Below are positions 101 to 47,836 of a DNA stretch of 47,988 nucleotides, piece after piece. Every line of letters begins with the position of its first letter. Within the stretch, counting starts at the first letter, position 1. The DNA is from Pseudoclavibacter sp. AY1F1 (GTDB lineage Bacteria; Actinomycetota; Actinomycetes; Actinomycetales; Microbacteriaceae). Location of the stretch: positions 1 to 47,988 of the forward strand of contig NZ_PSTQ01000017.1 in assembly GCF_002931075.1 (NCBI RefSeq). The letters are read 5' to 3'. The notes under the pieces are model-generated. The model was given only the letters and a program-made list of their open reading frames with translations, had not been told where the DNA came from and did no database searches. The translations under genes and the position numbers were made by a program.

Positions 101-2140
101 GTGACTCGCCATGCACAGAATGTCGGTGGTCCACGAGACGATGAAGGCATGCAAAACGAACCGGTGGACATCGAGGCGCCGCAGCCTGCGGTGCCCGGCC
201 GTTCCGCTCGCATCCGGGAGGTACGCGACCGCCTTGCGGCCTGCCTTGGTGTCGATCCCGCCGTCGTCGACAGTGCTTGCCAGGAGGCCGAAGACCGCAC
301 GGTCGGCCACCGCCGCACTCTGCTGATCTACGCGCTCGCCGACAACCAGCGGCAGCTCAACCACTTGCACGGCGAGCAAGCCGAGCTGCACGCTCGGGCA
401 CTGGAGATGGGGCTCCGCAGCGACGAAGTTGCCGGCACTTCGAGCCCTGCGGTCGAAGTACGGTCGCTTGCGGCTGAGATCGGAGCCGTGTCTGGCAGGT
501 CGCAGCGGTCGGTGCAGATCGAGTTGGGTCGGTCGGATGCGATGGCCAACCTGTTCGAGCCAGTCCAGGTGTCGATGAAGTCCGGGGCGATCAGTCGTGC
601 GCACGCGCTCGTGATCGTCGACGCCGGCCTGCGCATCGTGCATCCCGACCCTGCCGAGCTCGCGCGTCGTCGGGAGGAGTTCTGCCGGGTGGTGCTCGAG
701 AAGGCGGTCTCCACGACTCCCGGGCGCATCAAGGCGATTGCGGAGCGCGCCGCGGAGGAGCTCACGGAGGAGTCGCTCGACGAGCGGTTCGAGCGGGCAC
801 GACGTACGCGCAGGGTGATGCTGTCCCAGCTCGACGATGGGCTCGGCGAGCTCACGATCATCGACTCCTACGCGAAGCTCCGGTTGGTCTTTGACCGAAC
901 GACGAGACAGGCACGAGTCATCAGCGACGCCGAGCGAAGGGCAGCGAGGGAAGCCAACGCAGCCCAGTCGGCTCACCAGACCGACGTTCCTCTCCCCGAG
1001 CCGCGGTCACTCGATGAGGTGCGAGCCGATGTGCTGGGCGACAGCTTCCTCAGGGCGACGCCCGAGGAGTTGAAGGGCCGAGACCCGATCAAGGCGAGGG
1101 TCGCATTCGTGGTGCCCACCGAAGGGTTCCTTGCACCGGCAGCACCTCCGCGCCGCGGAACCCGGCCAGGCCAACCACCGGGTCCGCCTGGGACAGCCGC
1201 AACACTGCCACCGCGAGTGATCTCGACGCCGGCGCTCCTCGACGGCTACATCCCCGTGCCTACCGCGGAGGTCCGTCGTCTGATCGACGCGGCTCCAGAG
1301 TTCGAGCGCATCTTCACCGACCCGATCAAGGGCACGCTGGTCGAGGTCGACACCTACCGTCCGACGAGTGCGATGCGACGACGTCTCTCCGTTCGCGACG
1401 GGCGATGCCGGTTTGTGGGCTGCATGATGCCGGCGAACCGTTGCGAGATCGACCACACGGAAGCTTGGGAGGAAGGCGGCTCCACGAGCCTCCCCAACCT
1501 CGGCCACCTCTGCAAGGGCGACCACACGGGCAAGCACCACGGAGATTGGGCCGTCGAGCAGCTGCCCGACGGCGTCTACGAATGGAAATCGCCCACCGGT
1601 CTCCTCTTCAGCGATGAACCAGTCAAGTTCGGACGACTCACCTCACTGCCCCAGCCGCACCCCTCGCCCCTGACGCAGCCTGCCGCGGACGCCCAATCCC
1701 CAGACCCGCCAGCTCTTCGAGAACCAGGTGAGCCGTACAATCCCGCGAACCCAGGCGACGCTGGCGACGCTGGCGACGCTGGCGACGCTGGCGACGCTGG
1801 CGACGCTGGCGACGAGGATCATCGCAAACGCTTCCCGAACCCTGGCGACGAGGATCATCGCAAACGCTTCCCGAAGATTGGGTATCTAGAGGAGTTCCGG
1901 CGTGAGCGCGCGGCGAAGAAGGCGGCCATCGAGGCTGAGGCCTTGCGGACGCGTCAACCGGAGTTCCGCCCCACAGCGCAACAGGGCACGGCTGATGCAG
2001 CGCAACAAGGCACGGCTGATGCAGCGCAACAAGGCGCGGCTGATGCGCTTGAGCGGAATATGCCGGAGGGCGGGACGAGAACCGGAGGACGAGCGGTCGA
2101 GGAGACCTCGGGCTCCGCACAAGATCCACCGCCCTTCTAG
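101..2140 (+). CDS. DUF222 / HNH endonuclease-signature protein (13E12 repeat family)
   Basis: A 679-residue protein of the actinobacterial DUF222 family with a C-terminal HNH domain. The N-terminal alpha-helical DUF222 part spans roughly residues 40-330. The HNH part begins near residue 436 (CRFVGCMMPANRCEIDH), followed by N and H in SLPNLGHLCKGDHTGKHHGDW, so the zinc cysteines, the catalytic-type His and the Asn/His are present. Family members occur in many copies in actinobacterial genomes; their role is not settled (HNH nuclease, possibly mobile or intein-derived). The C-terminal 150 residues are repetitive: GDA units (DNA 1754-1815), a duplicated 12-residue block with EDHRKRFP (1808-1879) and three AQQGTADA blocks (1976-2047). 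The start is uncertain: GTG at 101 gives the full frame, ATG at 149 is an alternative, and neither has a well-placed ribosome site. Family is clear; function is not. Confidence 0.88.
   Translation: MTRHAQNVGGPRDDEGMQNEPVDIEAPQPAVPGRSARIREVRDRLAACLGVDPAVVDSACQEAEDRTVGHRRTLLIYALADNQRQLNHLHGEQAELHARALEMGLRSDEVAGTSSPAVEVRSLAAEIGAVSGRSQRSVQIELGRSDAMANLFEPVQVSMKSGAISRAHALVIVDAGLRIVHPDPAELARRREEFCRVVLEKAVSTTPGRIKAIAERAAEELTEESLDERFERARRTRRVMLSQLDDGLGELTIIDSYAKLRLVFDRTTRQARVISDAERRAAREANAAQSAHQTDVPLPEPRSLDEVRADVLGDSFLRATPEELKGRDPIKARVAFVVPTEGFLAPAAPPRRGTRPGQPPGPPGTAATLPPRVISTPALLDGYIPVPTAEVRRLIDAAPEFERIFTDPIKGTLVEVDTYRPTSAMRRRLSVRDGRCRFVGCMMPANRCEIDHTEAWEEGGSTSLPNLGHLCKGDHTGKHHGDWAVEQLPDGVYEWKSPTGLLFSDEPVKFGRLTSLPQPHPSPLTQPAADAQSPDPPALREPGEPYNPANPGDAGDAGDAGDAGDAGDAGDEDHRKRFPNPGDEDHRKRFPKIGYLEEFRRERAAKKAAIEAEALRTRQPEFRPTAQQGTADAAQQGTADAAQQGAADALERNMPEGGTRTGGRAVEETSGSAQDPPPF
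1754..2047 (+). repeat. Three in-frame tandem repeat blocks in the DUF222/HNH C-terminus
   Basis: Three different arrays stand in a row inside one reading frame. At 1754-1815 a 9-bp unit (ggcgacgct) is repeated about seven times and encodes Gly-Asp-Ala. At 1808-1843 and 1844-1879 a 36-bp unit is duplicated almost exactly. At 1976-1999, 2000-2023 and 2024-2047 a 24-bp unit occurs three times. All unit lengths are multiples of three, so copy-number changes would alter protein length without breaking the frame. The HNH domain lies entirely upstream. Confidence 0.93.
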
Positions 2141-2474
2141 CCCTTCGGATTCCCACCCCGCTCACCGTTGGCAGGGCGTCGAGCAGTCGTACATTGAGGC
2201 AAGGGGCGCAGGAAATCGGTGCCACTCGCCAACACGACGAGGGCGACACGTAGTAGGGACACATCCCAGGGACACGTAGCAGCTGCCGTCGCAACAGCGC
2301 CAGTCGCGGCAACAGCGCCCGCCGCGGGAGCAGCAAGCGCTCGAACAGCAAGCAGCAACGCGCAACAAGTAACAAGTAACAAGTAACAAGCCAAAAGCAA
2401 CAAGCCACAAGCAACAAGCAACAAGCTCACGAGTGCGAATAGGCAAGCTCACGAGTGCGATCAAAGGAGACGCC
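2141..2474. repeat. Repeat-rich intergenic region
   Basis: This 334-nt gap has no convincing gene. It holds low-complexity sequence: repeated gcaacagcgcc-type words (about 2287-2350), then a run of CAACAAG/TAACAAG heptamers (about 2358-2426), then a 17-bp exact direct repeat, CAAGCTCACGAGTGCGA, at 2422-2438 and 2444-2460. The second copy ends three bases before the ribosome binding site (AAAGGAGA, 2463-2470) of the next gene. Confidence 0.85.
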
Positions 2475-3110
2475 ATGGCTGGTCAGATCATCATCGATCT
2501 TTTCACGACGCTGGACGGGGTGCAGCAGGCTCCGGGCGGTCCGGAGGAGGATCCGGAGGGCGGCTTCCGGTACGGGGGTTGGCAGGCGCCGCTGATGGAT
2601 GAGGCCGAGGGCGACGCGGTCAACGAGGGTGTGCAGAGCATGGATGCACTGTTGCTGGGAAGGAAAACGTACGACATCTTCGCGGCCTACTGGCCTCAGT
2701 ACGCGGGTGGCCCCTCCGACAGCATCGCGTCGGTTTTCAACAGGATCCCGAAGTACGTGGCGTCGCGGGGACGCCCCGATCTCTCGTGGGAGACCTCGCA
2801 CCTGGTGGGGACCGATCTTGCTGCCGAGGTGGCGGAGATTCGGGATCGGCACAACAGCATTCATGTCGTGGGGAGCGTCAACTTCGCTCAGGCGCTTGTG
2901 CGCGAGGGGCTCTTCGATGTCCTGAATCTGTGGGTGTATCCGGTGGTGCTGGGGTCAGGGAAGCGCCTCTTCCCCGACGACGGGCCACCCCTCGGGCTCA
3001 CGCTCCTTGAGCCGCCCGTCGCTTCTCCAGGAGGATGCGTGCTCCTTAAGTACGGCCCAGGAGGACCCGTCGAAACCGCCGACATGGACGAGGCCCTCCG
3101 CGAGCGCTGA
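2475..3110 (+). CDS. Dihydrofolate reductase-family protein (RibD C-terminal domain)
   Basis: A 211-residue single-domain protein of the RibD-C/DHFR-like fold. It starts IIIDLFTTLDG, has the LLLGRKTYDIFAAYWP motif near residues 57-72, and has the HVVGSVNFAQALVREGLFDVLNLWVYPVVLGSGKRLF stretch (shown here by name only as the G-S-x-x-F-x-x-x-L helix and the PVVLGSGKRLF strand) typical of NADPH-dependent reductases of this family. These stand-alone proteins are usually annotated only as dihydrofolate reductase family; the substrate is unknown. The start is ATG 2475, preceded by AAAGGAGA (2463-2470) at ideal spacing, rather than an upstream in-frame ATG at 2433 that lies in the repeat region. Confidence 0.85.
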   Translation: MAGQIIIDLFTTLDGVQQAPGGPEEDPEGGFRYGGWQAPLMDEAEGDAVNEGVQSMDALLLGRKTYDIFAAYWPQYAGGPSDSIASVFNRIPKYVASRGRPDLSWETSHLVGTDLAAEVAEIRDRHNSIHVVGSVNFAQALVREGLFDVLNLWVYPVVLGSGKRLFPDDGPPLGLTLLEPPVASPGGCVLLKYGPGGPVETADMDEALRER

Positions 3111-3299: not shown

Positions 3300-5852
3300 T
3301 TAGTGCACCGGGTGCTTGCGCTCCAGCGCGGCCCCTTCGACGTCGACGTTCGGCATGATCTTGTCGAGCCACTTCGGGAGCCACCAGGCGGACTTCCCGA
3401 GGAGGTGCATGAGCGACGGCATGATGAGCATGCGCACGATGAACGCGTCGAGGAGCACACCGAACGCGAGACCGAACCCGATCGAGCGGATCATGGTCGA
3501 CTCGGCGAACACGAACCCGCCGAACACCGACACCATGATGAGCGCCGCAGCGATGACCACGGCCCGCCCGGCCCGGAAGCCCTGCACGACAGCAACCCTC
3601 GCCTCAGCCCCGTGCACGTACGCTTCGCGCATCCCGGACGCGAGGAACAGCTGGTAGTCCATGGCGAGCCCGAACAGAATGCCCACGAGGATGACGGGCA
3701 GGAAGCTCAGGATGGGCCCCGTCGCGTGCAGCCCGATGAGGTCGGCGAACCATCCCCACTGGAAGACGGCCACCACGGCCCCGTACGTCGCGAAGAGCGA
3801 CAGGATGAACCCGCCCGTCGCGATGAGCGGCACGAGGATCGACCGGAACACGAGGATCATGATGAGCAGCGACAGCCCCACAACCAGCGCGATGTAGAGC
3901 GGCAGCACCGAGTTGAGGCCCTCGGAGATGTCGATGTTGATTGCCGCCTGACCTGCAACGCCGAGCGTGATGCCATCCTCGATCTCAGGCAGAGCACGGA
4001 GCTCGCCGACGAGCTGCTCCGTGGAGATGCTGTTCGGCCCCTCCGCCGGCACGACCTGGAAAGCCGTCAGGCTCTTGTTGTCGGAAACCCCGATCGGGGC
4101 GACCGCCGTGACGTCGTCGAGCGAAGCGAGCTTCTCCGCGACAAGCACCTGCTTGTCGAGCACACCCGCATCGTCGAGCCCCTCCGGCAGCGTCGCAGTG
4201 ACGAGCAGGGGACCCGTCGTGCCCGCCCCGAACTGCTCCTCCGTGATCGTGAACGCCTGGTAGGACGCCGACTCCTCAGGCTCCGACGACCCATCGGGCA
4301 GGCCGACCCGCATGGAAAGCGCGGGGATGGCGACCGTGAGCAGCACGGCAACACCAGCGAACACGGTAACAATGGCCCGCCACGTCGGCATTGCCTTCAG
4401 CGGTGCCGCATGCGCGGCCCGCACCTGACCCGTCACGACCCCGACACCGCCGGTCGCGGCCCCCTCGGGGCCCGTGCCGTGCAGCTTGCGGATGTGCGCC
4501 CGCCTCCGCCTGTTGAGCACACGCATCCCGAGCTTGCCGAGCAGCGCCGGCGTCAGAGTGACCGCGATGAGCACAGCGATGAGCACGCAGACCGCGCCAG
4601 CCGTGCCCATAAGCCCAAGGAACGGGATGCCCGTCACGTTGAGAGCCAGCAGGGCGACGATGACCGTCGCACCGGCGAATACGACCGCGTTGCCGGCGGT
4701 GCCGTTCGCGAGGCCGATCGACTCTCGCACGTCCATGCCCTGCATGAGCTGCTTACGGTGCCGGTTCACGATGAACAGCGAATAGTCGATGCCAACCGCC
4801 AGGCCCAGCATGATGCCGAGGACAGGGGTGACCGACGCCATCTGCACAACACCGGAGAAGGCGAGCACGCTGACAACACCGATCGCAACACCCACGAGGG
4901 CCGTAAGAATAGGGAGGGATGCGGCCAGCGCCGACCCCAGCAGCACCAGCAGCACGATGGCCGCGAACACCAGACCGATGGCCTCGCCGATGCCGAAGAT
5001 CTGCGGGACGCTCTGCGCGATGTCCGTCGAGAACGCCACGTTGACGCCCTCCACGGGGTGCGCCTCGAAGTACTCGATGACCCCCTGCTTGGCCTCTTCG
5101 CTCAGCTCAAGGCGAGGCTCCGTGAACGACACGTTGACGATGGCCGTCGACCCGTCCTCAGAGACGAGGCTGATGCCATCCGAAAGTTCGACGAGGGTCG
5201 CGCCGTTCTCCAGCTGCTGCAGCTGCGTGTCGATCTCGTCCTGCGAGGCGTCCAGCGCGGCCTGCTGCTCGGCGAGCGCCTGCACCTGAGCGTCGAGCTG
5301 CGCCTGCTGCCCCGCGATCGCCTCAACCTGGGCGGCCGGATTGCCTGCAGCTACGAGCTGCTGCTTCGCCGCGTCGAGCTGCGCCTGCGCTGCATCGAGC
5401 TGCGCCTTGCCACCGTCGAGCTGGGCCTGGCCCGCATCAAGCTGCGCCTGCCCCGCCTCAATCTGAGTGCGCCCGCTCTCGACCTGCGCCGCCTGACCCT
5501 CGAGCTCGGCAGTCGCCGAGAACGGGTCGATGACGTCCGCAACGTCGGCGAGGTCGCCGCGATCCGCGATGACAGCGCTGATCTCGGCGCGCTGCGCATC
5601 CGTGAGCGCCGAACCGTCCGCAGTCGAGTACACGACGGTGCCGGATGCGCCAGCGAAGTCCGGCAGCTGCTCCTCGAGGTCCGAGATGACCTCACCGGAT
5701 GCGGTGCCGGGCACATCGAAGCTCGACGAGAGGCCCTTGAAGCCAATCAGGAACCCGCCGACGGCGAGCCCGAGGATGACCAGCCAGGCCCCCACGACAA
5801 CCCACACTCGGCGGGTCGCGAAGTTCCCCAGACGGTACAGCAGTTCGGCCAT
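3300..5852 (-). CDS. MMPL/RND-family membrane transporter
   Basis: An 850-residue inner-membrane transporter of the MMPL (RND) superfamily, which exports lipids, siderophores or drugs using the proton gradient. One transmembrane segment lies near residues 17-38. A long periplasmic domain follows and then a block of about five membrane helices; the same arrangement repeats in the second half. The conserved GIDYSLFIVNRHR and GLAMDYQLFLASGMRE motifs, one per half, are present. Residues about 118-220 of the first periplasmic loop are a heptad-like run (AGQAQLD, GGKAQLD, AAQAQLD) expected to form a long coiled-coil hairpin. The start is the second of two close ATGs: GAGAGG is six nt upstream of ATG 5852 but directly abuts the ATG at 5858. 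It is divergent from a TetR gene at 6108, which probably controls it. Substrate is unknown. Confidence 0.93.
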   Translation of the reverse strand: MAELLYRLGNFATRRVWVVVGAWLVILGLAVGGFLIGFKGLSSSFDVPGTASGEVISDLEEQLPDFAGASGTVVYSTADGSALTDAQRAEISAVIADRGDLADVADVIDPFSATAELEGQAAQVESGRTQIEAGQAQLDAGQAQLDGGKAQLDAAQAQLDAAKQQLVAAGNPAAQVEAIAGQQAQLDAQVQALAEQQAALDASQDEIDTQLQQLENGATLVELSDGISLVSEDGSTAIVNVSFTEPRLELSEEAKQGVIEYFEAHPVEGVNVAFSTDIAQSVPQIFGIGEAIGLVFAAIVLLVLLGSALAASLPILTALVGVAIGVVSVLAFSGVVQMASVTPVLGIMLGLAVGIDYSLFIVNRHRKQLMQGMDVRESIGLANGTAGNAVVFAGATVIVALLALNVTGIPFLGLMGTAGAVCVLIAVLIAVTLTPALLGKLGMRVLNRRRRAHIRKLHGTGPEGAATGGVGVVTGQVRAAHAAPLKAMPTWRAIVTVFAGVAVLLTVAIPALSMRVGLPDGSSEPEESASYQAFTITEEQFGAGTTGPLLVTATLPEGLDDAGVLDKQVLVAEKLASLDDVTAVAPIGVSDNKSLTAFQVVPAEGPNSISTEQLVGELRALPEIEDGITLGVAGQAAINIDISEGLNSVLPLYIALVVGLSLLIMILVFRSILVPLIATGGFILSLFATYGAVVAVFQWGWFADLIGLHATGPILSFLPVILVGILFGLAMDYQLFLASGMREAYVHGAEARVAVVQGFRAGRAVVIAAALIMVSVFGGFVFAESTMIRSIGFGLAFGVLLDAFIVRMLIMPSLMHLLGKSAWWLPKWLDKIMPNVDVEGAALERKHPVH

Positions 5853-5912
5853 CAGCATCCTCTCGGCGCACGCATCGTGCGCGCTCGTTCGTAGTGGCGC
5901 GCCGCCCGAAAC

Positions 5913-6042
5913 CGATCACAGAGACCGAAACCGATCACAGGGACCGCAAACGACCACAGGGACCGCAAACGACCTCAGGGACCGCAATCGAACACAGGGA
6001 CCGAAACGATCGCAGGATCGAGGCCGATCGCAGGGACCGACG
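5913..6042. repeat. Tandem 18-19-bp repeat array in the divergent MMPL/TetR promoter region
   Basis: Seven head-to-tail units of 18-19 bp with consensus near CGATCACAGGGACCGCAAA start at 5913, 5932, 5951, 5970, 5989, 6007 and 6025. There is no spacer between units, so this is not a CRISPR array. It fills most of the gap between the divergent MMPL and TetR genes and could present repeated regulator sites, or could be one more of the minisatellites found across the window. Confidence 0.9.
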
Positions 6043-6107: not shown

Positions 6108-6767
6108 ATGCCAGAGCAAGCCGCAGACGTCTCAAAGCAAGCGCCAGATGTCTCAGAGCAAGCCGCAGGCGTCGACGAGCGCACCGCTTCCGGCCACCGC
6201 CAGGGCCCCGTCCGCAGCGAAGCGGCGCGAGTCGCGGTGCTCCAGGCGACCTCGAAGCTGTTCGCCGAGCGCGGCTACGAGCGCCTCACCATGGAGGGCG
6301 TCGCCTCCGAAGCGGGCGTCTCCAAGCAGACCATCTACCGCTGGTGGCCCTCGAAGGGCGCACTCGTCTCCGACTGCCTCCTCCAGGGACAGCTCTTCCC
6401 GGACCGCTTCACGGTGCCGAACTCGGGCGAGCTGCGCCGAGACCTCACGGCTTGGCTCGACACCATCCTCGCGCTGCTCGGCCAGCCACAGGGCGAGCTG
6501 CTTGTCCGCTCCCTCATCGCCGCCTCGGTCGAGAACGCCGACATCGGCAGGCGACTCCACGAGAGCCTCGGAGCCAGCCAGTCCCTCACCGAGAGGTTCC
6601 AGATCGCCATCGCCGACGGCCAGCTCGCGCCGGATGCACGCCTCGAGGAGATCGGCGAGGCGATCATCGGCGCGCTCCTCCTCCGCGCTCTCAGCCGAAG
6701 CGAGTCGAACGCGGGGAGCATCCAACGCCTCCTCGACGCGTTGCTCGGGCCGGCGCTCCCCGCTTAA
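6108..6767 (+). CDS. TetR-family transcriptional regulator
   Basis: About 219 residues. The HTH lies near residues 40-85 (ARVAVLQATSKLFAERGYERLTMEGVASEAGVSKQTIYRWWPSKG region, with the TetR-typical VSKQTIYRWWPSK recognition helix). The C-terminal ligand domain is of the TetR_C type found next to efflux genes. The first 25 residues are a degenerate repeat, QAADVSKQAPDVSEQAAGVDE, outside the TetR fold. The start at 6108 is chosen because of the leaderless -10 (6095-6100); GTG 6090 and ATGs 6096/6099 are in frame but overlap that hexamer. Divergent from the MMPL gene and probably its repressor. It ends 26 nt before the convergent histidine phosphatase. Confidence 0.87.
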   Translation: MPEQAADVSKQAPDVSEQAAGVDERTASGHRQGPVRSEAARVAVLQATSKLFAERGYERLTMEGVASEAGVSKQTIYRWWPSKGALVSDCLLQGQLFPDRFTVPNSGELRRDLTAWLDTILALLGQPQGELLVRSLIAASVENADIGRRLHESLGASQSLTERFQIAIADGQLAPDARLEEIGEAIIGALLLRALSRSESNAGSIQRLLDALLGPALPA

Positions 6768-7327: not shown

Positions 7328-8805
<1,478 letters not shown>

Positions 8806-9063
8806 GGTGTGCCCTTCGAGAAGGTCGAACGGATGGGGGACGCGGGAATGGAGGGACACGGGAATGGGGGACGCAGGAATGGAGGGACGCGGGAATGGAG
8901 GGACGCGGGAATACGGGAATACGGGAATGCGGGAATGCGGGAATACGGGAATGGAGGGAGGACCGAGCAGGCGCTGGGCCCCCGCTTCAGCGCCCTCGTC
9001 ACTTGGGCTCTCGTCACTTGGGCCCCGCGTCACTTGGACGCCCGCGTCACGTAGGCGCCCGCG
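8806..9063. repeat. Two tandem arrays between permease and ATPase genes
   Basis: The 258-nt gap is almost all repeat. About 8830-8957 is a run of GGGAATGGAGGGACGC-like and GGGAATACG/GGGAATGCG units. About 8996-9075 holds five units around GTCACTTGGGC; on the minus strand each is a copy of the last codons and stop of the permease (GCGCCCAAGTGA), so the end of that gene was multiplied downstream. No gene or clear terminator is seen. Confidence 0.88.
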
Positions 9064-10755
9064 TCACTTGGGCGCCCTCGTCGCGATGCCGATGACGGCG
9101 ACGCCGAGGAGCGCGACGATGAGCGAGAGCGCGGCCGCCGTGTTGAACGCGCCGGCCTGCTGGAGGTTGAAGATCGCGACGCCGAGGGTCTGCGATCCGG
9201 GCGAGAGGAGCAGCACCGACAGTGTCAGCTCACGCACCGCGGTGACGGCAACAAGCACGGCCCCGGAGATGGCGGCGGGCGCGGCCATGCGGCTGGAGAT
9301 ATCGACAAGCGCGCGCATCCGCCCCGCTCCCCCGATCCTGGCGGCTTCCTCGGCGCTCGAAGGGATGCTCGCGAGTGGTGCCGCCACGGCCTGCACAACG
9401 AGCGCAGTGAACGAGGTGACGTAGGCGCAGAGGATCAGCCATGGCGTGTTGAAGAGCCCGATGTGGGGCGCGAGCACGAGCCACGCGACGGCGATGACGA
9501 TGCCGGGAACCGCCTGCGGCAGCATGGCGAGCGCGCGCAGGGGGCCGCTGCCGCGCATCCGCGTTCGGGTGACGAGCACGGCGATGCCGAGCCCGAGGAG
9601 CCCGCAGATGACGGCCGCGAGCACGGCGAGCATCACCGAGTTCGTGGCACCCTGGATGGAGTTCGCCGAGGTCACGGCCTTCACGACGTTGTCGAGCGTC
9701 AGGTTCTTCGGCGCCAGCGCAAGCCCGGGCGCGCGGAGCAGCGACTGCTGCAGCAACGCGAGCAGCGGCAGCACCGTGACGGTGACCACCAGCGCCCAGG
9801 TCACGACGGAGGCCGGGATGCGCCCCTTTCCAAGCGGCAGGAGCTGCGGGGCAGACGACGACGAGTCGAGCTCCCAGCGGCTCTTGCCGATCAGGAAGTC
9901 AACGATCAGCGCCGCCAGCGCGAGCACCAGGAGGACAACTCCGATGGTCGCGACGACCGCGAGCGGCTCATCCACGGTCCCCGACTGCAGGTAGCGGTAG
10001 ACGAGCGTCGCGAGGGTTGTGTACTGCTCGGGCAGGCCGATGATCGACGGAATGCCGAAGTCAGCGAGATTACCCACCGCGATGAGCACAAACGACGACA
10101 GCAGCGCTGGACGAAGCAAGGGGACGGTGATCGTGAAGATGCTGCGCGCCGGGCTGGCCCCCGCGATGCGCGCCGCCTGCTCGAGGTCGGACGGCACCCG
10201 ACGCAGGGCGGCCGAGACGATGAGCATCGCGATCGGGTAGCTGTGCACGGTGAGGAGCAGGATGACGCCGTCCACGCCGTAGATCGACCACAGCGGACCG
10301 CCGAAGGCCTGCGCCCACCAGAGGTTCACGGGGCTCGTGGGCCCTGCGATGCCGAGCCAGGCGATCGCGCCGACGAACGGCGGCACCAGTAGCGGCGTGA
10401 GCGCGAGCAGGCGCAGCCCGCGACGCCCAGCGAGGTCGGTGCGGTCGAGCAGCACCGCGAGCGCCGTGCCGACTACAACAGCGCCGAGCGCGGATGCGCC
10501 GGCCGAGACGAGGCTGTTCGTCGCGGCCTCAACGACGTCGCTCTGCCAGAGGACGTGCAGCTGGGATCCGCTGGCCGCGAGCACGAGGATCGCGCCGATC
10601 GGAACGAGCACCAGTGCGGCGACGGCGACCCAGAGAGTGAGCGAGAGGCCGTGCACCCCGTCGAGATTGGGACGCGAAGCCGCCGGAACCGCCGCGGAGG
10701 CGGTGCCGCTGCGAACAGCGGCACCGCTCCCGGGTGTTGTGGCCGATGTGATCAT
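9064..10755 (-). CDS. ABC transporter permease, double-length (FbpB/PhnU type)
   Basis: A 563-residue permease containing two fused membrane domains. Each half carries an EAA loop that contacts the ATPase: EQAARIAGASPARSIFTITV near residue 210 and EEAARIGGAGRMRALVDI near residue 485. About 12 hydrophobic segments are visible. This architecture is typical of ferric-iron and 2-aminoethylphosphonate importers of the same superfamily. ATG 10755 lies 39 nt after the stop of the binding protein; no strong ribosome site is seen, so the start is moderately certain. Its 3' end is tandemly duplicated downstream (see 8806-9063). Confidence 0.92.
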   Translation of the reverse strand: MITSATTPGSGAAVRSGTASAAVPAASRPNLDGVHGLSLTLWVAVAALVLVPIGAILVLAASGSQLHVLWQSDVVEAATNSLVSAGASALGAVVVGTALAVLLDRTDLAGRRGLRLLALTPLLVPPFVGAIAWLGIAGPTSPVNLWWAQAFGGPLWSIYGVDGVILLLTVHSYPIAMLIVSAALRRVPSDLEQAARIAGASPARSIFTITVPLLRPALLSSFVLIAVGNLADFGIPSIIGLPEQYTTLATLVYRYLQSGTVDEPLAVVATIGVVLLVLALAALIVDFLIGKSRWELDSSSSAPQLLPLGKGRIPASVVTWALVVTVTVLPLLALLQQSLLRAPGLALAPKNLTLDNVVKAVTSANSIQGATNSVMLAVLAAVICGLLGLGIAVLVTRTRMRGSGPLRALAMLPQAVPGIVIAVAWLVLAPHIGLFNTPWLILCAYVTSFTALVVQAVAAPLASIPSSAEEAARIGGAGRMRALVDISSRMAAPAAISGAVLVAVTAVRELTLSVLLLSPGSQTLGVAIFNLQQAGAFNTAAALSLIVALLGVAVIGIATRAPK

Positions 10756-11838: not shown

Positions 11839-11919
11839 GATGACCTAACTGTTCGAGGGGAGAGCGGGTCTGGGGTGCTGCGAGGGGAAAGCGTTCGGGC
11901 GACAGGAGGAGGGGGAAGA

Positions 11920-12000
11920 GAAGAAGAAGAAGAAGAAGAAGAAGAAGAAGAAGAAGAAGAAGAAGAAGAAGAAGAAGAAGAAGAAGAAGAAGAAGAAGAA
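11920..12000. repeat. (GAA)27 trinucleotide microsatellite upstream of the binding-protein gene
   Basis: Twenty-seven uninterrupted GAA copies (TTC on the minus, coding-direction strand), followed by degenerate GGGAGAAGAA units to about 12033. It lies in the 237-nt gap between the metallophosphoesterase stop and the binding-protein start. It is a pure purine/pyrimidine mirror repeat that could form a triplex. The frames reading it as poly-Glu or poly-Ser are not considered genes. Confidence 0.97.
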
Positions 12001-12075
12001 GGAGAAGAAGGGAGAAGAAGGGAGAAAGAGGGAGACCAGCAACGCACGCAGCATGCGCTCGCGGAACAGGGCCGC

Positions 12076-33094: not shown

Positions 33095-33100
33095 TGTCGC

Positions 33101-33133: not shown

Positions 33134-33239
33134 AACCCACTCAGACTGCGTCCGAGCGGACGTAGTCTTCATCTGTGCGCGCGGCAGGAACCGTGAACTG
33201 CCGAGTGCCGAACCAGAGAACTTGAGGAGGGGAGACCCG

Positions 33240-35582: not shown

Positions 35583-35675
35583 CGTGTGTCGCTCTCTCTC
35601 GCGCGGGCGGTCAGACCCGGTCAGATCAGAAATTCTTGAAAGGGCTCACCCGCGACGCGGGCGTGCCGGTGCGCA

Positions 35676-37376: not shown

Positions 37377-37420
37377 AGCGTGCCTCTCATTCGTCTGTTC
37401 AGCCAAGGTCCGGCGTCCGA

Positions 37421-38290: not shown

Positions 38291-39429
38291 ACGATGCTCG
38301 CCTCTTCCTTGAGTGGTGAGTCGGGCTTGAGTGGTGAGTCGTGCTTGAGTGGTGACTCGGGCTTGAGTGGTGATTCGGGCTCGACTGGTGAGTCGGGCTG
38401 CGAGGACTGCGACGCGGCAGACGCCTTCGCGCGTTCGGGCGTGGATGCATCCCCGTCGCCGATCACGGGGCCACCCTTCTTGCGGTTGCCCTCGATGTCG
38501 ACGCGCGGGTCGAGGATCGGGTAGGCCAGGTCGGCGAGCAGGTTCACGAGCACGAAGACGACCGCGGCGAGACCGACAACCGCCTGCAGGACTGGGAGGT
38601 CTTGGCTTGCGACGGCACGCTGCACGACGCTGCCGATGCCGCTCCGCCCGAACACGGCCTCCGTGATGAGCGACCCTCCAAGCAGCTCACCGACCGTGAG
38701 CGCAAGCACCGTCACCGCCGGGAGTGCCGACGGCTTCAACAGGTGTCGCGTGAAGAGCCGACGCTGCGTGAGGCCGCGCGAACGCGCCACCGACGCGTAC
38801 TCCTGCGAGGAGGCGTGGTCGAGGTTCGTGATGAGCACCTCCGCGATCTGCGCGGAGACGGGAATGCCGAGGGCGACGGCGGCAAAGAACGTCGCCCAGG
38901 CGCTCTCAGGGTCGACGATGCGGAACAGGCCAAGCCCGAACGCGAACACGTTGATGAGGAGCAGGCCGATGACGAAGTTCGGCACCGACAGGAACAGCGA
39001 CGGGAACGCGCGGAGCAGGCCCTGGCCATAGCGGACGGGGAGCACCTGCGTGCCGAACGCGATGAGCACGGCGAGCACAACCGCGACGAGGAGGGCGCTG
39101 CCCGCGAGCGCGAGCGTCGAAGGCAGCGCATCCCCGATGAGGTCGGCGACGGGGAGGTTCGACCGCAACGAGACGCCGAAGTCGCCGACCACGAACCGCG
39201 TGAGCGAGCCCCACAGCTGCACGAGCAGCGGCTGGTCGAGGCCGTAGTAGGCCACGATGCGGGCGATCTCCTCCTCCGTGAACCCGTTCTCCGGGTTCCG
39301 GAGCGTGCTCGTGACCGGGTCGCCGGGCAGCACGCTGATCACGAAGAACGTGAAGACGTAGGCGAGCAGCACCACGATGACTGCCTGCCCGGTTCGCCTC
39401 AGCGCGAAGCGCGTGTACCGCCCTCGCAT
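38287..39429 (-). CDS. Dipeptide/oligopeptide ABC transporter permease (DppB type) with repeat tail
   Basis: A 380-residue permease. VISVLPGDPVTSTL near residue 33 and GDFGVSLRSNLPV near 85 are DppB motifs, and the EAA loop (QEYASVARSRGLTQRRLFTRHLL) is at about 215. The membrane part ends near residue 320 (LADLAYPILDPRVD). The last 60 residues are a cytosolic extension with SPLKPESPLKHDSPLKPDSPL, encoded by five 18-bp repeats. ATG 39429 follows the binding-protein stop after one base. Confidence 0.92.
   Translation of the reverse strand: MRGRYTRFALRRTGQAVIVVLLAYVFTFFVISVLPGDPVTSTLRNPENGFTEEEIARIVAYYGLDQPLLVQLWGSLTRFVVGDFGVSLRSNLPVADLIGDALPSTLALAGSALLVAVVLAVLIAFGTQVLPVRYGQGLLRAFPSLFLSVPNFVIGLLLINVFAFGLGLFRIVDPESAWATFFAAVALGIPVSAQIAEVLITNLDHASSQEYASVARSRGLTQRRLFTRHLLKPSALPAVTVLALTVGELLGGSLITEAVFGRSGIGSVVQRAVASQDLPVLQAVVGLAAVVFVLVNLLADLAYPILDPRVDIEGNRKKGGPVIGDGDASTPERAKASAASQSSQPDSPVEPESPLKPESPLKHDSPLKPDSPLKEEASIV
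38308..38397 (-). repeat. 18-bp x5 tandem repeat at the DppB C-terminus
   Basis: Five units of 18 bp (plus strand CTTGAGTGGTGAGTCGGG and variants) at 38308, 38326, 38344, 38362 and 38380. They encode SPLKP(E/D)-type hexapeptides. The frame is kept. Confidence 0.95.
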
Positions 39430-39430
39430 G

Positions 39431-41083
39431 TCAGCTCAACCAGGCCGTGGCGTAGTTCGCGAACGCCACGCCGTCGTAGGTCACGCCCTGCAGCCCAGGC
39501 TGCTGCACGTAGATGCGCTGCACGATCTGCGTGACCGGGACGTAGTACCCCTGCTCGAGCACGTAGGCCTGGAGCTCGTCGGCCAGCTGCGAGCGGGCCT
39601 CGGGGTCGCTGGCCGTCGAGATGCCGGTCGCGAAGTCGTTGAGGGTCGTGTCGCTCTCGCCGACGCCGAACCAGTCTTCGCCGCCGTTCACGCTCGTGAG
39701 CACACCCGCGACGGTGCCGATGTCGATGAAGCTGCGCGTCGGTTCCTCGACGGCGATGCCCTCCTTGTTCGTGACGCGCTCGCCGTAGGTGATCACGTCG
39801 AAGGCCTCGAGGGTGACGTCGAAGCCGATCCGCGTCAGCTGCTGGGCGATGAGCTCATCCACGGGCTGCGAGGTCGCCAGGTAGGGCGTCGGGTGCAGCG
39901 TCACCTCGAGCCGCTTGCCGTCTTTGGTGCGAACGCCGTCGGCGCCGGCAACCCAGCCGGCCTCGTCGAGGAGTCGCTCGGACTCTGCAGGGTCATACGC
40001 GAAGGCGGCAGAGTGATCCGTGGCCTCGGGCACGTTGCTCTGGATGAACGACTCGGCGGCCTGCCAGTCGTCGGTGTAGACGGTGTCGAGGATCTCCTGG
40101 CGGTCGATGCCGTGCTGGAACGCCTGCCGGACCGCGGTCTCACCGAATGGCTCAACTCGTGTGTCGACGGCGAAGCCGTACGCGAAGCCGAGGTAGCGGG
40201 GAGTCGCGACCTGGAAGCCCTCCGAGCTCAGCGCCTCCAGCTCCTGCGGCGAGGCGTTGTAGCCGACGTCAGCCTGCGACGACTGCACGGACGCGGTCCG
40301 CAGCGACTGCTCGGCGACGATCTTGTACGTGATCGAGTCGAGGTAGGCGGGACCCGTGTGGTCGAGCGCCTCCGGACCCCAGGTGTAGTCGTCGCGCTTC
40401 GTGAGGACGACGTTGTCGCCCTCCTGCCACGACTCGACGGTGAAGGCACCGCTGCCGATGGCGTTGCTGAGGTCGGCCTGCCCCTCGGCCGGCAGTGCGA
40501 TCGTCTCCGGCGAGAGCAGGATCGAACCGTGGTAGCCGAGCGTCGGGATGAAGCCGAGGGTCGGCTGAGTGAACGTCACCTTGACCGTCGCCGGGTCGAC
40601 AGCGGTCGCGCTTTCGTAGTTCGCGGACGGGAAGAGACCGATGCGGTTGATGCCGCGCGCCGGGTCGCCCTTCGCCCAGATGTCGAGGTTCGCGACGACC
40701 GCATCCGCGTCGACGGGTGTGCCGTCCGAGAAGGTCACGCCGTCCCTGAGGTTGAGCGTGTACTCGGTCGCGTCCTCGTTCTGCTCCCAGCTCTCGGCGA
40801 CCCAGGGGCTGACGGCCCCCTCCTCATCCACGTAGACGAGCTTGTCGGTGACCTGCCGCCAGACCTGGCCCTGGTAGCTGGAGATGGACCCGTTGTTGGG
40901 GATCCACGTGTCGCCGAGCGAGTCGATGAGGAACGTGATGTCCCCGCCCGCCTGGGGCTCGCCACCGGCTGCTGCGCCGGGGGTCGCGTCGGACGTCGCG
41001 CAGGCTGCAAGCAGCGACATGCTCGCGAGCACGCCGATGGCTGCGGCGAGTTTCCGTCGGAGTCGTGGGTGTCGTGTCGACAT
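39431..41083 (-). CDS. Oligopeptide-type ABC transporter substrate-binding lipoprotein (family 5)
   Basis: A 550-residue binding protein of solute-binding family 5. The signal peptide ends in the lipobox LLAAC (Cys28). The mature part includes YTLNLRDGVTFSDGTPVDADAVVANLDIW near residue 130, the family-5 signature, and AVRQAFQHGIDRQEI near 330. It delivers peptides, opines or other ligands to the permeases. ATG 41083 starts at the signal peptide; the ribosome site is weak. A 15-bp repeat lies upstream (41133-41192). Confidence 0.92.
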   Translation of the reverse strand: MSTRHPRLRRKLAAAIGVLASMSLLAACATSDATPGAAAGGEPQAGGDITFLIDSLGDTWIPNNGSISSYQGQVWRQVTDKLVYVDEEGAVSPWVAESWEQNEDATEYTLNLRDGVTFSDGTPVDADAVVANLDIWAKGDPARGINRIGLFPSANYESATAVDPATVKVTFTQPTLGFIPTLGYHGSILLSPETIALPAEGQADLSNAIGSGAFTVESWQEGDNVVLTKRDDYTWGPEALDHTGPAYLDSITYKIVAEQSLRTASVQSSQADVGYNASPQELEALSSEGFQVATPRYLGFAYGFAVDTRVEPFGETAVRQAFQHGIDRQEILDTVYTDDWQAAESFIQSNVPEATDHSAAFAYDPAESERLLDEAGWVAGADGVRTKDGKRLEVTLHPTPYLATSQPVDELIAQQLTRIGFDVTLEAFDVITYGERVTNKEGIAVEEPTRSFIDIGTVAGVLTSVNGGEDWFGVGESDTTLNDFATGISTASDPEARSQLADELQAYVLEQGYYVPVTQIVQRIYVQQPGLQGVTYDGVAFANYATAWLS

Positions 41084-41132
41084 GGTGTGTGCTGCTTTCT
41101 CGGGGGTTCTGCGGTGTGGAGCGCGGGTGGGG

Positions 41133-41192
41133 TGGAATCGGGTCTGCTGGAATCGGGTGTGATCGGACCGGGTGTGGTGGGATCGGGTGTGG
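41133..41192. repeat. 15-bp x4 tandem repeat between oxidase and binding-protein genes
   Basis: TGGAATCGGGTCTGC (41133), TGGAATCGGGTGTGA (41148), TCGGACCGGGTGTGG (41163) and TGGGATCGGGTGTGG (41178). They fill much of the 157-nt gap. Confidence 0.93.
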
Positions 41193-41240
41193 TCTGGCGC
41201 GTGGATGCTCGGTGCTGCCGGGCTGCGCGTGTCGCGCTGG

Positions 41241-42740
41241 CTAGATGGCCTTGCCCGGGTTGAAGAGCGCGGCGGGGTCGAGCGCCCGCTTGATGGCGTG
41301 CTGCGCCTCGCGGTTGCGGTCGGAGAGCTCAAGGGCGGCGAGGTCGAGCTTCGAGGATCCGATGCCGTGCTCACCGCTCACGGTGCCGCCGAGCTCGAGC
41401 GCGAACTGTGCGAGCGCGCTGGCCGCGTCGTGCAGCTGCGGGGGTACGAGGGCGGGGTCGGCTCCCTCGGGGATGCGGAGCGTGATGATGGGGTGCAGGT
41501 TGCCGTCGCCGGCGTGCGCGACGGCGCCGATCGTCACACCGAACCGCTCCTCGACAACCGGGAAGTGGGCGAAGATCTCGGGGATGCGCGACTTGGGCAC
41601 GGCGATGTCTCCGCCCGCGAACCACTCGGCCGGGTCGAAGCCGCGGCCGGAGCGGCGCAGCTCCCACAGCGCTTCGCCGTCTTCGACGCTCTCCTCGGTG
41701 ACGAGCCCGCCGACGGCTTCGAGCGCCGCCCGCAGGTCTGCCGACTGCTCGTCGATGCCGTAGCCGTCGAGCTCGATCAGGAGGAGGGCGCCGCCGCGGG
41801 CGGTCAGCGTGCTCCCCGTGTGGTTGTCGATGTTCTCGAGCGTGCGCGAGTCGAAGAACTCGACGACGCTGGGCCGCACCGTGCTGCGCGTGATGGCGGA
41901 GAGCGCATCCGCACCGGCCGCCGTGCTCTCGAAGAACGCCGAGACCGTGCGGCGGGCGACGGGGATGGGGCGCAGGCGCACGGTCGCCGCGACCACGATG
42001 CCCAGGATGCCCTCCGAGCCGACGAAGAGGGAGACCAGGTCGAGGCCCGTGACGCCCTTGATGGAGCGGTGCCCGACGTGCACGAGGCTGCCGTCGGCGA
42101 GCACCACGTCGAGCGCGAGGATCGACTCACGCGTGACGCCGTACTTCGCGCAGCGCAAGCCGCCGGCGTTGGTGGCGATGTTGCCGCCGATCGACGAGAT
42201 GTCCCAGCTGGCGGGGTCAGGGGCGTAGAAGAGGCCGTACGGCTCGAGGTGCCGGTTGAGGTCGGCGTTGATGACGCCGGGCTCGACGACGGCGACCTCG
42301 TCGAGTGGGCTCACCTCGACGACCCGGTTGAGGCGCTCGGTCGAGACGACAAGCTGCTCCTGGTCGGCAGTTGCGCCGCCGGCGAGACCAGAGCCAGCGC
42401 CGCGTGGAACGACGGCCACACCGTGCCTGGCCGCGGCTCGCACAATGGCCTGTACCTCTTCCACGCTCGTGGGGAACGCGACCGCCGGGCCGAGGTCGAT
42501 ACCCGCGAGGCGCGCCAGCGTGCTCGCATCCACCGCGTACTCGCGAGTCTCCGCCGAAGGAACGCGCACGTCGAGCTGCGGCAGCTCAAGCGAGAGCTCG
42601 CCGAGAACACGCTGCAGCGGCGCAGCTCCTGGCTCAGTTGCTGGCGCAGCTCCTGGCTCAACTGCGAGCTCAGCTGCTGTGGCGGCACCTGACGCTGAGA
42701 GCTGGGCGGTCGGCGTTGGGGTGGCGAGCTTGGTGGGCAT
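41241..42740 (-). CDS. FAD-linked oxidase (GlcD/D-lactate dehydrogenase type)
   Basis: A 499-residue flavoprotein of the VAO/PCMH family. After a 40-residue repeat leader (ELAVEPGAAPATEPGAAPL), the FAD domain shows VVPRGAGSGLAGGA (about 117), the PDPASWDISSIGGNIATNAGG stretch (about 190) and VGSEGILGIV. The C-terminal domain has AHAGDGNLHPIITLRIPEG (metal/substrate His) and SGEHGIGSSK. The family oxidises 2-hydroxy acids such as D-lactate, glycolate or D-2-hydroxyglutarate. GAAAGG is 5-6 nt before ATG 42740. It lies upstream of the ABC importer, 157 nt from the binding-protein start. Confidence 0.9.
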   Translation of the reverse strand: MPTKLATPTPTAQLSASGAATAAELAVEPGAAPATEPGAAPLQRVLGELSLELPQLDVRVPSAETREYAVDASTLARLAGIDLGPAVAFPTSVEEVQAIVRAAARHGVAVVPRGAGSGLAGGATADQEQLVVSTERLNRVVEVSPLDEVAVVEPGVINADLNRHLEPYGLFYAPDPASWDISSIGGNIATNAGGLRCAKYGVTRESILALDVVLADGSLVHVGHRSIKGVTGLDLVSLFVGSEGILGIVVAATVRLRPIPVARRTVSAFFESTAAGADALSAITRSTVRPSVVEFFDSRTLENIDNHTGSTLTARGGALLLIELDGYGIDEQSADLRAALEAVGGLVTEESVEDGEALWELRRSGRGFDPAEWFAGGDIAVPKSRIPEIFAHFPVVEERFGVTIGAVAHAGDGNLHPIITLRIPEGADPALVPPQLHDAASALAQFALELGGTVSGEHGIGSSKLDLAALELSDRNREAQHAIKRALDPAALFNPGKAI

Positions 42741-42937
42741 GCTGGCCTTTCGACGGGGCGGGGAACGATCCTTCGAAAGGTACGGAAACGCTGATGCCCT
42801 GAATAGGCGGCGGCGTCGCATCCCTTCGCGGTGCGTTGCCGGGCTTCAGACAGCGTCATGTTTCGTAACGAGGAGTGCCACAGAGTGGCGCCGATTGGCG
42901 CGGAGTAGCGCGGAGTCAGCGCGGAGTCGGCGCGGGT

Positions 42938-42954
42938 GTTGCCTGTCAGGCAAC
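42938..42954. promoter_or_regulatory. 17-bp perfect palindrome, candidate operator
   Basis: GTTGCCTG-T-CAGGCAAC, an 8-bp half-site with a single central base, 200 nt upstream of the FAD oxidase start. The size and symmetry suit a dimeric repressor, but no regulator gene is adjacent. Confidence 0.45.
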
Positions 42955-43020
42955 GCCCGGCAGTCGCAGCCTCGCTCGACACCATCCCCGGCGGTCGGAT
43001 CGGCGAGTGTGCCGAGCCCG

Positions 43021-43102
43021 GCTGTCCAACATGAGTGCAATATCGGCCGAAAACCAGCCCTAGGTGCTTCGGGACCCGGTATTTGCACTGATGTTGGACA
43101 GC
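43021..43102. repeat. 26-bp imperfect inverted repeat, GCTGTCCAACAT arms
   Basis: The left arm (43021-43046) starts GCTGTCCAACATGAGTGCAA. The right arm (43076-43102), read on the other strand, starts GCTGTCCAACATCAGTGCAA. They differ at two positions plus one insertion and are separated by 29 nt. Confidence 0.9.
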
Positions 43103-43150
43103 GCTTACGGCAACTCCCTGTCCGGGTGCCCGAACGCGTGCACCGACACA

Positions 43151-43185
43151 AGAGGCGGGCCGCGCGATGAGCGCGACCCGCCTCT
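43151..43185 (-). terminator. Hairpin after the second GH1 gene
   Basis: AGAGGCGGG and CCCGCCTCT pair at the outside, with GCGC-GATGA-GCGC inside and two mismatched bases between. It is 55 nt after the GH1 stop on the minus strand. Confidence 0.65.
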
Positions 43186-43239
43186 GCAAGCGCCGATCCC
43201 CCGAGGAACGGACTACCGGAAGAGTCGGGATGCTGGCCG

Positions 43240-46600
<3,361 letters not shown>

Positions 46601-46696
46601 GGGACCGCTCTCCTTCTCCCGCCTATGGCGGCAACTCAGTCTGGAGCCCCTGGTCTGCTGAGCCGCCAAGCCACTCCAGAGGAGATTTTGGGCAAC

Positions 46697-46771
46697 AAAA
46701 AAACCTGAACTCGACCACCGCCTTTTCGGCGATATGAGTTCAGGTTTTGCCCGCTTGACCGGTAACAATCC
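46697..46771 (-). promoter_or_regulatory. RAT site overlapping a leader terminator (operon 2)
   Basis: On the minus strand the RAT starts GGATTGTTACCGG (46771) and ends GCGGGCAAAACCT (46742), almost the BglG/LicT consensus. Its last bases begin a 13-bp terminator stem: AAAACCTGAACTC (46748-46736) pairs with GAGTTCAGGTTTT (46712-46700), followed by a run of seven T (46703-46697). The two structures are mutually exclusive. Bound antiterminator should hold the RAT and prevent termination before the PTS gene. Confidence 0.95.
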
Positions 46772-46805
46772 AAGGATTCCGCAGGACTTCATTGCCCTGC
46801 GGCTG

Positions 46806-47732
46806 TCACTCTAGCATCGGCTCAACGTCCGTGCCATAGGCAATGTGCTGAGCGAGTCGTTCGATGTGCACTGTCACATACAGGAGCTCCTCGTCGGTCA
46901 GCTCGACCCCCGTCGCTTCCCGCACGTAGCCCTTCACCTGCTCTGCGATCGCGAACGAGCGCGGGTAGGTGCGCTTGGTGAAGTCGAAGAACGATGAGTC
47001 GGTGGAGCGGAGCATGCTGCGCGAAACGAGCCGCTGCAGGAGGAATTGGATGTGCAGCACGAATCGCGCGTAGTCGTGGCTGTCCACGTCGAGGTCGACG
47101 CCGAGGCCGGCTTCGACGGTCACGACGACGTGCTGCACGCGGCGGAACAGCAGCGCTGACGTGCCGTCAGGTTCGTCGCGCGTCGAGTTCAGCACGTGCA
47201 TGGTCAGGAACACCGCTTCTTCCGGCGGGAGGTCACGCCCGAGGGCGGCGGAGATCGCGGCGGACATGCGTTTCGAGGCCGCAAATTCCTGGGGGTGCAG
47301 TACCCGGAGTTCCGGCATGGAGGTCGCGGGGATGCGGATCCCCTGATCGAGCCTCTCGAGCACGTACTGGATGTGGTCGATGATCGCGAGGGGCAGGCGC
47401 TTGCCGAGGTCACGGCCGAGGGTGCGCTCAGCTTCGTCAACCGCGCCCATGACGGCCTCCACAACCGCGTACGGCACTGCGCTCAGCAGCTGGAGCGCCT
47501 GGTCACCCTCGCTGCCAGTTGCGAGCACAAACGTCTTTTCGACCCGTGACGGGTCGACGAGGTCGCCCGGCTTCAACTGGAAACCGATCCCTCGCCCCAT
47601 CAGCACGCGCTCCTGGCCGGAACCGTCGATCTGGATCACAACGTTGTTGTTGATGACCTTCGAGATACCGGGGCCCGGGGAGCTGCTGGGGTTGCGGGAG
47701 TTCCTCCTGCGGGATTCACCCATAGTGGGCAT
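46806..47732 (-). CDS. licT: BglG/LicT-family transcriptional antiterminator (operon 2)
   Basis: A 308-residue antiterminator. After a 22-residue Ser/Arg/Pro extension come the CAT domain (SKVINNNVVIQID, LMGRGIGF) and two PRDs. All four histidines are conserved: AIIDHIQYV and FLTMHVLN in PRD1; RFVLHIQFLLQRL and YVTVHIERL in PRD2. AGGAG eight nt before ATG 47732 fixes the start. It is the first gene of operon 2; the RAT lies 35 nt after its stop, so a basal transcript can make the protein before the terminator is met. Confidence 0.94.
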   Translation of the reverse strand: MPTMGESRRRNSRNPSSSPGPGISKVINNNVVIQIDGSGQERVLMGRGIGFQLKPGDLVDPSRVEKTFVLATGSEGDQALQLLSAVPYAVVEAVMGAVDEAERTLGRDLGKRLPLAIIDHIQYVLERLDQGIRIPATSMPELRVLHPQEFAASKRMSAAISAALGRDLPPEEAVFLTMHVLNSTRDEPDGTSALLFRRVQHVVVTVEAGLGVDLDVDSHDYARFVLHIQFLLQRLVSRSMLRSTDSSFFDFTKRTYPRSFAIAEQVKGYVREATGVELTDEELLYVTVHIERLAQHIAYGTDVEPMLE

Positions 47733-47798
47733 TGTATTGCTCCTGGCTCTGAGGAGCCGCGGTGATTTCTCCCGAGGGTTCCGTGCCCCTGTGAGGTG

Positions 47799-47836
47799 TT
47801 TGGGTACAAAAAGCTGAGGTTTTGGGTACAAAAAAG
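47799..47836. repeat. Direct repeat TTTGGGTACAAAAA
   Basis: TTTGGGTACAAAAAGC (about 47800-47815) and TTTTGGGTACAAAAAAGC (about 47819-47837) are near-identical. The second copy includes the T-run of the rRNA terminator as read on the minus strand. Confidence 0.8.

Follow-up and report, generated by a model that had tools for sequence, protein, structure and literature searches.

What process fills a stretch of bacterial DNA with dozens of tandem repeats that are mostly unrelated to one another? This question is raised by the window analyzed here, which is a whole 47,988-nt contig of the 4.1-Mb genome of Pseudoclavibacter sp. AY1F1 (29 contigs, referred to below as G000). The arrays in this window are best explained, with a probability of roughly 0.78, as local tandem duplications that arise by slippage, expand, decay by point mutation, and persist where selection does not clear them from conserved DNA.

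The arrays are real. An array was called at a Tandem Repeats Finder (TRF) score of at least 50, with overlapping calls merged, and was considered strong at a score of at least 80. By this measure, an array is found at 16 of the 16 stretches at which a sequence-only reading of the window had listed one. The borders differ from those listed by at most 18 bp at the start and 34 bp at the end, and the largest shifts are seen for 2358-2460 (2354-2426 by TRF) and 11920-12000 (11915-12020). Additional arrays absent from that list were also identified, including 5248-5456, 8990-9082, 14976-15010, 27062-27135, and 42883-42935. In all, the window holds 33 merged arrays that span 2559 bp, or 5.33% of its length. 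Ten dinucleotide shuffles in 1-kb blocks yielded 0-5 arrays (mean 1.6), and twenty shuffles of codons in genes and dinucleotides between them yielded 0-6 (mean 2.85). For strong arrays, 19 were observed versus a mean of 0.2 in the codon-aware shuffles.

Most of these arrays are specific to a lineage, as had been proposed. The window was compared with the four closest sister species (G001, G002, G005, and G007), each represented by one genome. Gene order is largely kept in all four, with blocks of 76-96% nucleotide identity, and many arrays appear in the alignment as net added length between conserved flanks. A hand count across the five species gave 129 arrays, of which 119 could be placed on window coordinates and 10 were dropped. 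The placed arrays fall into 47 loci: 21 have an array in a single species, 16 have unrelated best units in at least two species, and 10 have related units, where only the best unit of each species is compared. Among the 27 loci with an array in the window, nine are single-species, 13 carry unrelated best units in several species, and five are related. Two of the labels need qualification: 8833-9082 is counted as unrelated, yet its 17-bp arrays are related between G000 and G002, and at 1645-1875 the label of relatedness comes from sister-sister pairs and not from the 36-bp best unit of the window. Because cover of the second half of the window is incomplete in G002, G005, and G007, an array may be scored as single-species at some loci only because sequence is missing. 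One stretch of coding tail can carry unrelated arrays species by species, as in the phosphatase tail at 12946-13029, and the copy number of a given unit varies between species at a few loci (17- and 18-bp units).

For part of the arrays, the source of the unit can be seen. A match to the unit is present at the orthologous place in a sister for 15 of the 33 arrays, a count in which sister-shared arrays are included and up to 2-3 matches are expected by chance at the cut-off. The clearest cases are 27062-27135, 8990-9082, 38308-38399, and 47792-47844, and a local origin is thereby borne out for some arrays. Sister alleles that lack the expansion also contain a trace of what was to come: at a lag equal to the future period, the longest exact match averages 5.4 bases versus 2.8 bases at neighboring lags (25 events, p = 0.0001). 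With three multiply counted loci reduced to one entry each, the values over 21 distinct loci are 5.0 and 2.9 bases (p = 0.0008). When runs of at least 9 bases are dropped as possible decayed second copies, 19 loci give 4.4 versus 2.9 bases (p = 0.002). Such an excess is as predicted by slippage between short direct repeats. A dispersed repeat or mobile element, whether similar to repetitive extragenic palindromes or spread by satellite transposition, was considered and rejected. When 160 arrays of G000 were compared with one another (the window and 24 further segments), only 19 alignments were similar, and the 15 of these that were listed fall in five pairs.

Within genes, the arrays respect the reading frame. 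In agreement with the claim that units inside genes are multiples of three, all 15 genic arrays of the window (15 of 15) have a best period that is a multiple of three, versus 7 of 14 intergenic ones. The corresponding values for the rest of G000 are 53 of 59 and 29 of 63, based on the 24 segments mentioned above (464 kb of the 4.1 Mb, picked by contig rather than randomly, and taken without four contigs of 677, 1385, 4346, and 18758 bases). These counts omit arrays that straddle a gene edge (four in the window and five in the other samples) and rely on a simple gene caller, which missed the HNH gene at 101-2140 and left its arrays among the intergenic ones.

As for position, the arrays sit mainly in tails, linkers, and gaps. 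In an ATP-binding cassette (ABC) ATPase, the aligned block covers residues 78-332, and the arrays lie, judging from coordinates, at residues ~370-422 and ~471-555 of the 568-residue frame. The aligned block of a phosphatase ends at residue 223, and its array, likewise placed from coordinates, spans residues ~227-254. Two further cases qualify the statement that arrays are never found in a catalytic core. A CAGGGA array (21509-21546) interrupts an enzyme, where it occupies an unaligned gap at residues 378-409 between blocks 146-377 and 410-569 that align to solved structures. The array at 5248-5456 (minus strand, residues ~134-203 of an MMPL-family protein) overlaps the Pfam MMPL match at 151-455. 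This array has units of 21, 42, and 63 bp and is present in all five species, and its seven-residue units are probably coiled-coil heptads, that is, a structural repeat. The further proposal that selection removes arrays only from folded domains is consistent with the overall distribution but unproven: genes with arrays are not less conserved outside those arrays than genes without them (15 versus 20 genes, p = 0.25). The stretch, not the gene, therefore seems to matter.

The rest of the genome also contains arrays, at a lower and patchy density. The window has 68.8 arrays per 100 kb versus 27.4 in the 24 other segments, which range from 0 to 19 arrays per 20 kb and include two segments without any. 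Across these segments, array number follows GC content (rho 0.73), which here is not separated from gene type, and is uncorrelated with the intergenic fraction (rho -0.04). A dif-like pattern, used as a marker for proximity to the replication terminus, was matched only in G009 and G006 among the ten genomes of the genus. Outside the orthologous region, the sisters have 11.5 (G002), 9.2 (G005), 10.0 (G007), and 17.5 (G001) arrays per 100 kb. Other members of the genus have 25 (G003), 15 (G004), 43 (G008, 90% complete), and 10 (G009); this sample was taken without G006, which is 83% complete. Pooled values are 14 for six genera of the family and 28 for three of the order, and seven sampled genomes of the class span 5-73. 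A comparison mostly outside the phylum was drawn from 80 loci with a GH1 gene among the matches listed; four were too short and were dropped, and the 76 used (74 non-actinobacterial, mostly Firmicutes and Gammaproteobacteria) have 3.5 arrays per 100 kb. The impression that the window is unusual for a bacterial chromosome thus stands against these loci but not against its own class. The density is high for bacteria generally and locally very high, and it is not unique among high-GC actinobacteria. The upper end of the class range belongs to a relative (G068, 7.5 Mb, GC 74%; segments L219, L220, and L221) with 73 arrays per 100 kb, which is above G000 overall.

Taken as local duplications, each array would be an independent minisatellite, or in a few cases a microsatellite, born in place when a short resident sequence is duplicated in tandem. 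We infer that births most likely come from slippage of the polymerase, or from templates misaligned between direct repeats only a few bases long, and that the arrays would then gain copies one at a time by this mechanism and erode by point mutation. Coding and non-coding DNA alike would see births, and survivors would lie mostly in gaps or, where the unit length is a multiple of three, in linkers and tails. Such a scheme would call for neither one shared repeat family nor a mobile element nor the loss of mismatch repair. Several observations weigh against this explanation. For 18 of the 33 arrays, no source was detected in any of the four sisters. These arrays could have another route of birth, or divergence (26-37% at fourfold sites between G000 and the sisters) could have erased the source. 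In addition, only 10 of the 25 microhomology events beat every control lag, and microhomology at that spacing might reflect a second copy in decay and not the cause of the duplication. Under this explanation, copy number would presumably still be changing, though the comparison covers one genome per species. Finally, patchiness is not accounted for by lower conservation of array-bearing genes, a cause that was considered and for which no difference was found.

A heritable change in replication or repair could instead have raised the rate of tandem duplication throughout this lineage, such that the window is one outcome among many. We regard this alternative as possible but doubtful. In its favor, the parts of G000 sampled beyond the window average 5.4 arrays per 20 kb (23 segments, with the 5.7-kb segment L106 left out) versus 2.5 in 30 sister segments (permutation p = 0.0014), and 2.2 versus 0.6 strong arrays (p = 0.0095). 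In matched synteny, strong arrays number 14 versus 7, 17 versus 9, 16 versus 9, and 19 versus 11 in G000 and each sister. A second stretch has nine arrays in G000 versus three in G002, and the part of it covered in G001 has six versus two. However, for all arrays the difference in matched synteny is small (22 versus 19, 28 versus 26, 23 versus 18, and 32 versus 22), and the difference outside the window shrinks, for the ten segments from large contigs, to 4.4 versus 2.5 per 20 kb (p = 0.025), or 1.5 versus 0.6 for strong arrays (p = 0.056). The compared segments are neither orthologous nor random, and because the window and the second stretch were picked as array-rich in G000, the comparison favors G000.

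The repair genes offer no candidate for a raised rate. The sequence-only reading had pointed to mismatch repair and the nucS gene, and the evidence does not support such a cause: NucS turns up in 38 of the 40 genomes searched, G000 included, and the MutS_V domain was not found in 56 of 59 genomes of the class, G000 among them, an absence that thus does not set this lineage apart. According to the portion of a review considered here, NucS does not correct indels, its loss leaves indel rates unchanged, and the PHP exonuclease of DnaE could be the indel remover (PMC8228993). The presence of NucS is therefore not diagnostic for the cause of the arrays. Loss of DnaE1 proofreading was considered and rejected, as the PHP region of G000, the only genome compared, aligns to a solved bacterial DnaE (7pu7, presumably mycobacterial) and keeps the metal-site motifs at their expected positions. 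Nonhomologous end joining was also rejected as a source of duplications. Ku was found in G000, G001, G002, G004, G005, and G007 of the ten genomes of the genus, with no match in G003, G006, G008, and G009, two of which are incomplete as given above. Because the Ku-less G003 and G008 still have 25 and 43 arrays per 100 kb, Ku is not required.

A second alternative is regional: the first ~18 kb of the window would be a persistent hot spot for tandem duplication that all five species inherited. This scenario seems rather unlikely to us, even though the orthologous 20-kb stretch has 18, 17, 15, and 16 arrays in the four sisters versus 0-7 in 30 other 20-kb segments, and a hand count places 20 of the 29 loci in the first 18 kb in the class with a single-species array or unrelated best units. 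Genes in this stretch are less conserved (87-91% versus 90-95% amino-acid identity), and its fourfold sites are slightly more diverged in three of four comparisons (0.31-0.37 versus 0.26-0.36), so weaker constraint could suffice. Moreover, it is the single such region compared across species and was chosen for its arrays. That both effects act together, with an ~18-kb hot spot maintained while at least five species diverged and arrays were repeatedly born and lost, plus a raised rate in one lineage without loss of NucS or of the PHP motifs, is unlikely. These regional and lineage effects are what local slippage and selection leave over, and they merit a whole-genome comparison.

Viewed one by one (coordinates from TRF), the arrays begin in the C-terminal tail of the HNH protein (plus strand), where 9-, 36-, and 24-bp arrays lie at 1754-2046. 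The same tail has 9-bp arrays in G002, G005, and G001 and a 24/30-bp array at 1754-1875 in G007. At 2354-2426, an intergenic 7-bp unit (AGCAACA) is repeated 10 times, and G005 has four copies of the 7-bp unit AAGCAGC. Beyond the MMPL-family array with its 21/42-bp units, the gap between the divergent MMPL and TetR genes contains seven copies of a 19-bp unit (5906-6040). Anchors on either side of this gap are 129-172 bp apart in G000 versus 9-47 bp in the four sisters. The array adds ~120 bp between the two genes while both flanks are conserved, and the promoter-operator distance may therefore change. At the start of the TetR gene (6112-6173, plus strand) are three copies of a 21-bp unit, of which G001 has two and the other sisters a shorter stretch.

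The C-terminal tail of the ABC transporter ATPase (minus strand) carries 63/36/18/6-bp arrays at 7367-7620, with different units in G002, G005, and G001, and 9- and 27-bp arrays at 7767-7922, past the aligned ATPase block. A 16/32-bp array follows at 8833-8953, either upstream of the ATPase gene or in an N-terminal extension, for which no source sequence was found in the four sisters. The 17-bp array at 8990-9082 has 5.6 copies; G002 has 3.6 copies of a rotated relative, G005 and G001 match without an array, and G007 has a match beside another array. The GAA microsatellite at 11915-12020 (35.3 copies by TRF, ~27 of them uninterrupted) lies upstream of the gene for a solute-binding protein (10795-11838, minus strand), at a distance of ~77 bp. 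Its 106 bp are long for a bacterial trinucleotide repeat, and purine tracts of the GAA type can form triplexes. In the same gap, G002 has a 17-bp array and the other three sisters have none. The tail of the tyrosine phosphatase (12946-13029, minus strand) has 6/12-bp arrays in G000 and different units in the sisters, namely 12/24, 18, 18/36, and 36 and 27 bp. At the divergent boundary of the RpiR and alcohol dehydrogenase genes (14976-15010), 1.9 copies of an 18-bp unit are present; G002 and G007 match without an array, and G001 and G005 have 2.3-2.4 copies.

Further along are a 7-bp CGCGCGC array (16147-16205) and a 7/15/22-bp array (20444-20587) in a gap of 167 bp, versus 37 bp in G005 and G001. 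The CAGGGA array mentioned above (21509-21546, plus strand) is a six-copy insertion within a sulfide:quinone oxidoreductase-like enzyme. Near tRNA-Arg (23014-23087) lie 30- and 15-bp arrays (22811-22941). In the same neighborhood, G002 has ~5.9 kb of extra DNA between its matches to 23151 and 23203. The open reading frames of this insert encode an AraC-type regulator, an ABC ATPase with a periplasmic-binding domain, and a FecCD permease, which, judged by predicted products, identify it as a putative uptake set rather than a phage. The array at 27062-27135 (plus strand) consists of 3.2 copies of a 23-bp unit and starts within the final codons and stop of a flavin reductase gene; the three covering sisters have one copy of the unit. 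A 12-bp array at 29337-29390 lies in a gap of 79 bp versus 30 bp in G005, and another at 31596-31646, just upstream of the GH1 gene (31661), lies in a stretch that exceeds its G005 and G001 counterparts by 37-38 bp. In both of these sisters, the weak row at 32779-32850 within the GH1 gene corresponds to a stretch of equal length that holds no array.

In the C-terminal tail of an ABC permease (38308-38399, minus strand), an 18-bp unit is present in 5.1 copies, versus 2.3 copies of this unit in G001. The 15-bp array at 41124-41193 (4.7 copies) has no counterpart in G001, the sole covering sister, and at 42883-42935 a 10/11-bp array corresponds to an 11-bp array of a different unit in G001. The 22/23-bp duplication at 47792-47844 lies either ahead of a BglG-type antiterminator gene (46806-47831, minus strand) or at its beginning, and the duplicated sequence is single-copy in G002, G005, and G001. 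The regions 29507-34136 and 43240-47831 contain two sets of genes for a phosphotransferase system EIIBCA, a GH1 protein, and an antiterminator in opposite orientation. The alignment jumps from 29994 to 47401 in G002 and from 34642 to 42937 in G005, so the intervening DNA was lost or gained.

Length could matter at some of these sites, such as the GAA array upstream of the solute-binding protein gene, the MMPL/TetR gap, and the arrays next to the GH1 and antiterminator genes, and selection might keep arrays there as contingency loci, regulator sites, or spacers. As a general account this is very improbable, given that the units are mostly unrelated to one another and mostly unshared with the sisters; and because genic units keep the frame in 15 of 15 cases in the window, switching by frame shift is unlikely for these. 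Although G000 is a draft in 29 contigs and long arrays are hard for short reads, an assembly artifact is barely credible: collapse would shorten arrays rather than create them, the copies differ by point changes and stay in frame in genes, the four sister assemblies carry arrays too, and the single-contig G003 has 25 per 100 kb.

Local tandem duplication in little-constrained DNA can be set beside several known systems. Satellites defined as at least four regularly spaced repeats of a 10-200-nt unit number 12 in the window by TRF (250 per Mb) and 33 in the 464 kb outside it (71 per Mb), or nine and 22, respectively, with at least 80% matches. Most of the 33 arrays in the window fall outside this definition because they have fewer copies or shorter units. 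A rule based on exact decamers present at least four times, which imitates that of the prokaryotic satellite survey of Subirana and Messeguer (2019; PMC6749651) with a different program and on sampled DNA, finds two satellites in the window and nine elsewhere, or 11 in 512 kb (~21 per Mb) of G000. The same rule gives five in 1472 kb of the 74 non-actinobacterial loci and one in 600 kb of the four sisters elsewhere. The class relative G068 has five such regular satellites in 60 kb (83 per Mb). In the part of the survey considered here, the highest bacterial values are 23.0 and 21.9 per Mb, group medians are 0-3 per Mb, four listed actinobacteria have 2.25-6.44 per Mb, and some archaea reach 89 per Mb (PMC6749651). 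G000 is thus near the top bacterial entries and above both the group medians and the four actinobacteria. As in that survey, a genome contains many mutually unrelated local arrays that likely stem from local errors of DNA duplication; unlike it, as far as that part of the survey goes, arrays are compared here locus by locus with sister species.

In the de novo repeats described for a beta-lactamase gene, short segments were likewise duplicated; direct repeats flank some of these duplications, which are ascribed to replication slippage in the portion of that report considered here (PMC4169377). The beta-lactamase repeats arose under selection in one gene, whereas the arrays of G000 are spread over the genome with no visible selection. 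A survey of short tandem repeats (STRs) across the tree of life reports, in the part considered here, that STR density in bacteria rises with GC content (r = 0.49), a trend that agrees with the GC correlation among the G000 segments, and that STRs show no average enrichment in bacteria (PMC12699852). Among the papers listed by literature searches, no earlier report of such arrays for this group was recognized. The STR survey reportedly treats shorter units than those of most G000 arrays. By most reports, regular tandem arrays are scarce in bacteria, and the syntenic sister set offers a natural system for following the birth, growth, replacement, and removal of arrays in a group that lacks MutS; the arrays are also candidate typing markers. 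The variable-number tandem repeats and contingency loci of bacteria have similar unit sizes and occupy both intergenic and in-frame positions. Those loci vary within species, whereas the copy differences seen here are between species only. Local minisatellites in little-constrained DNA are therefore a known kind of bacterial repeat, here found at high local density and with their origin partly traced.

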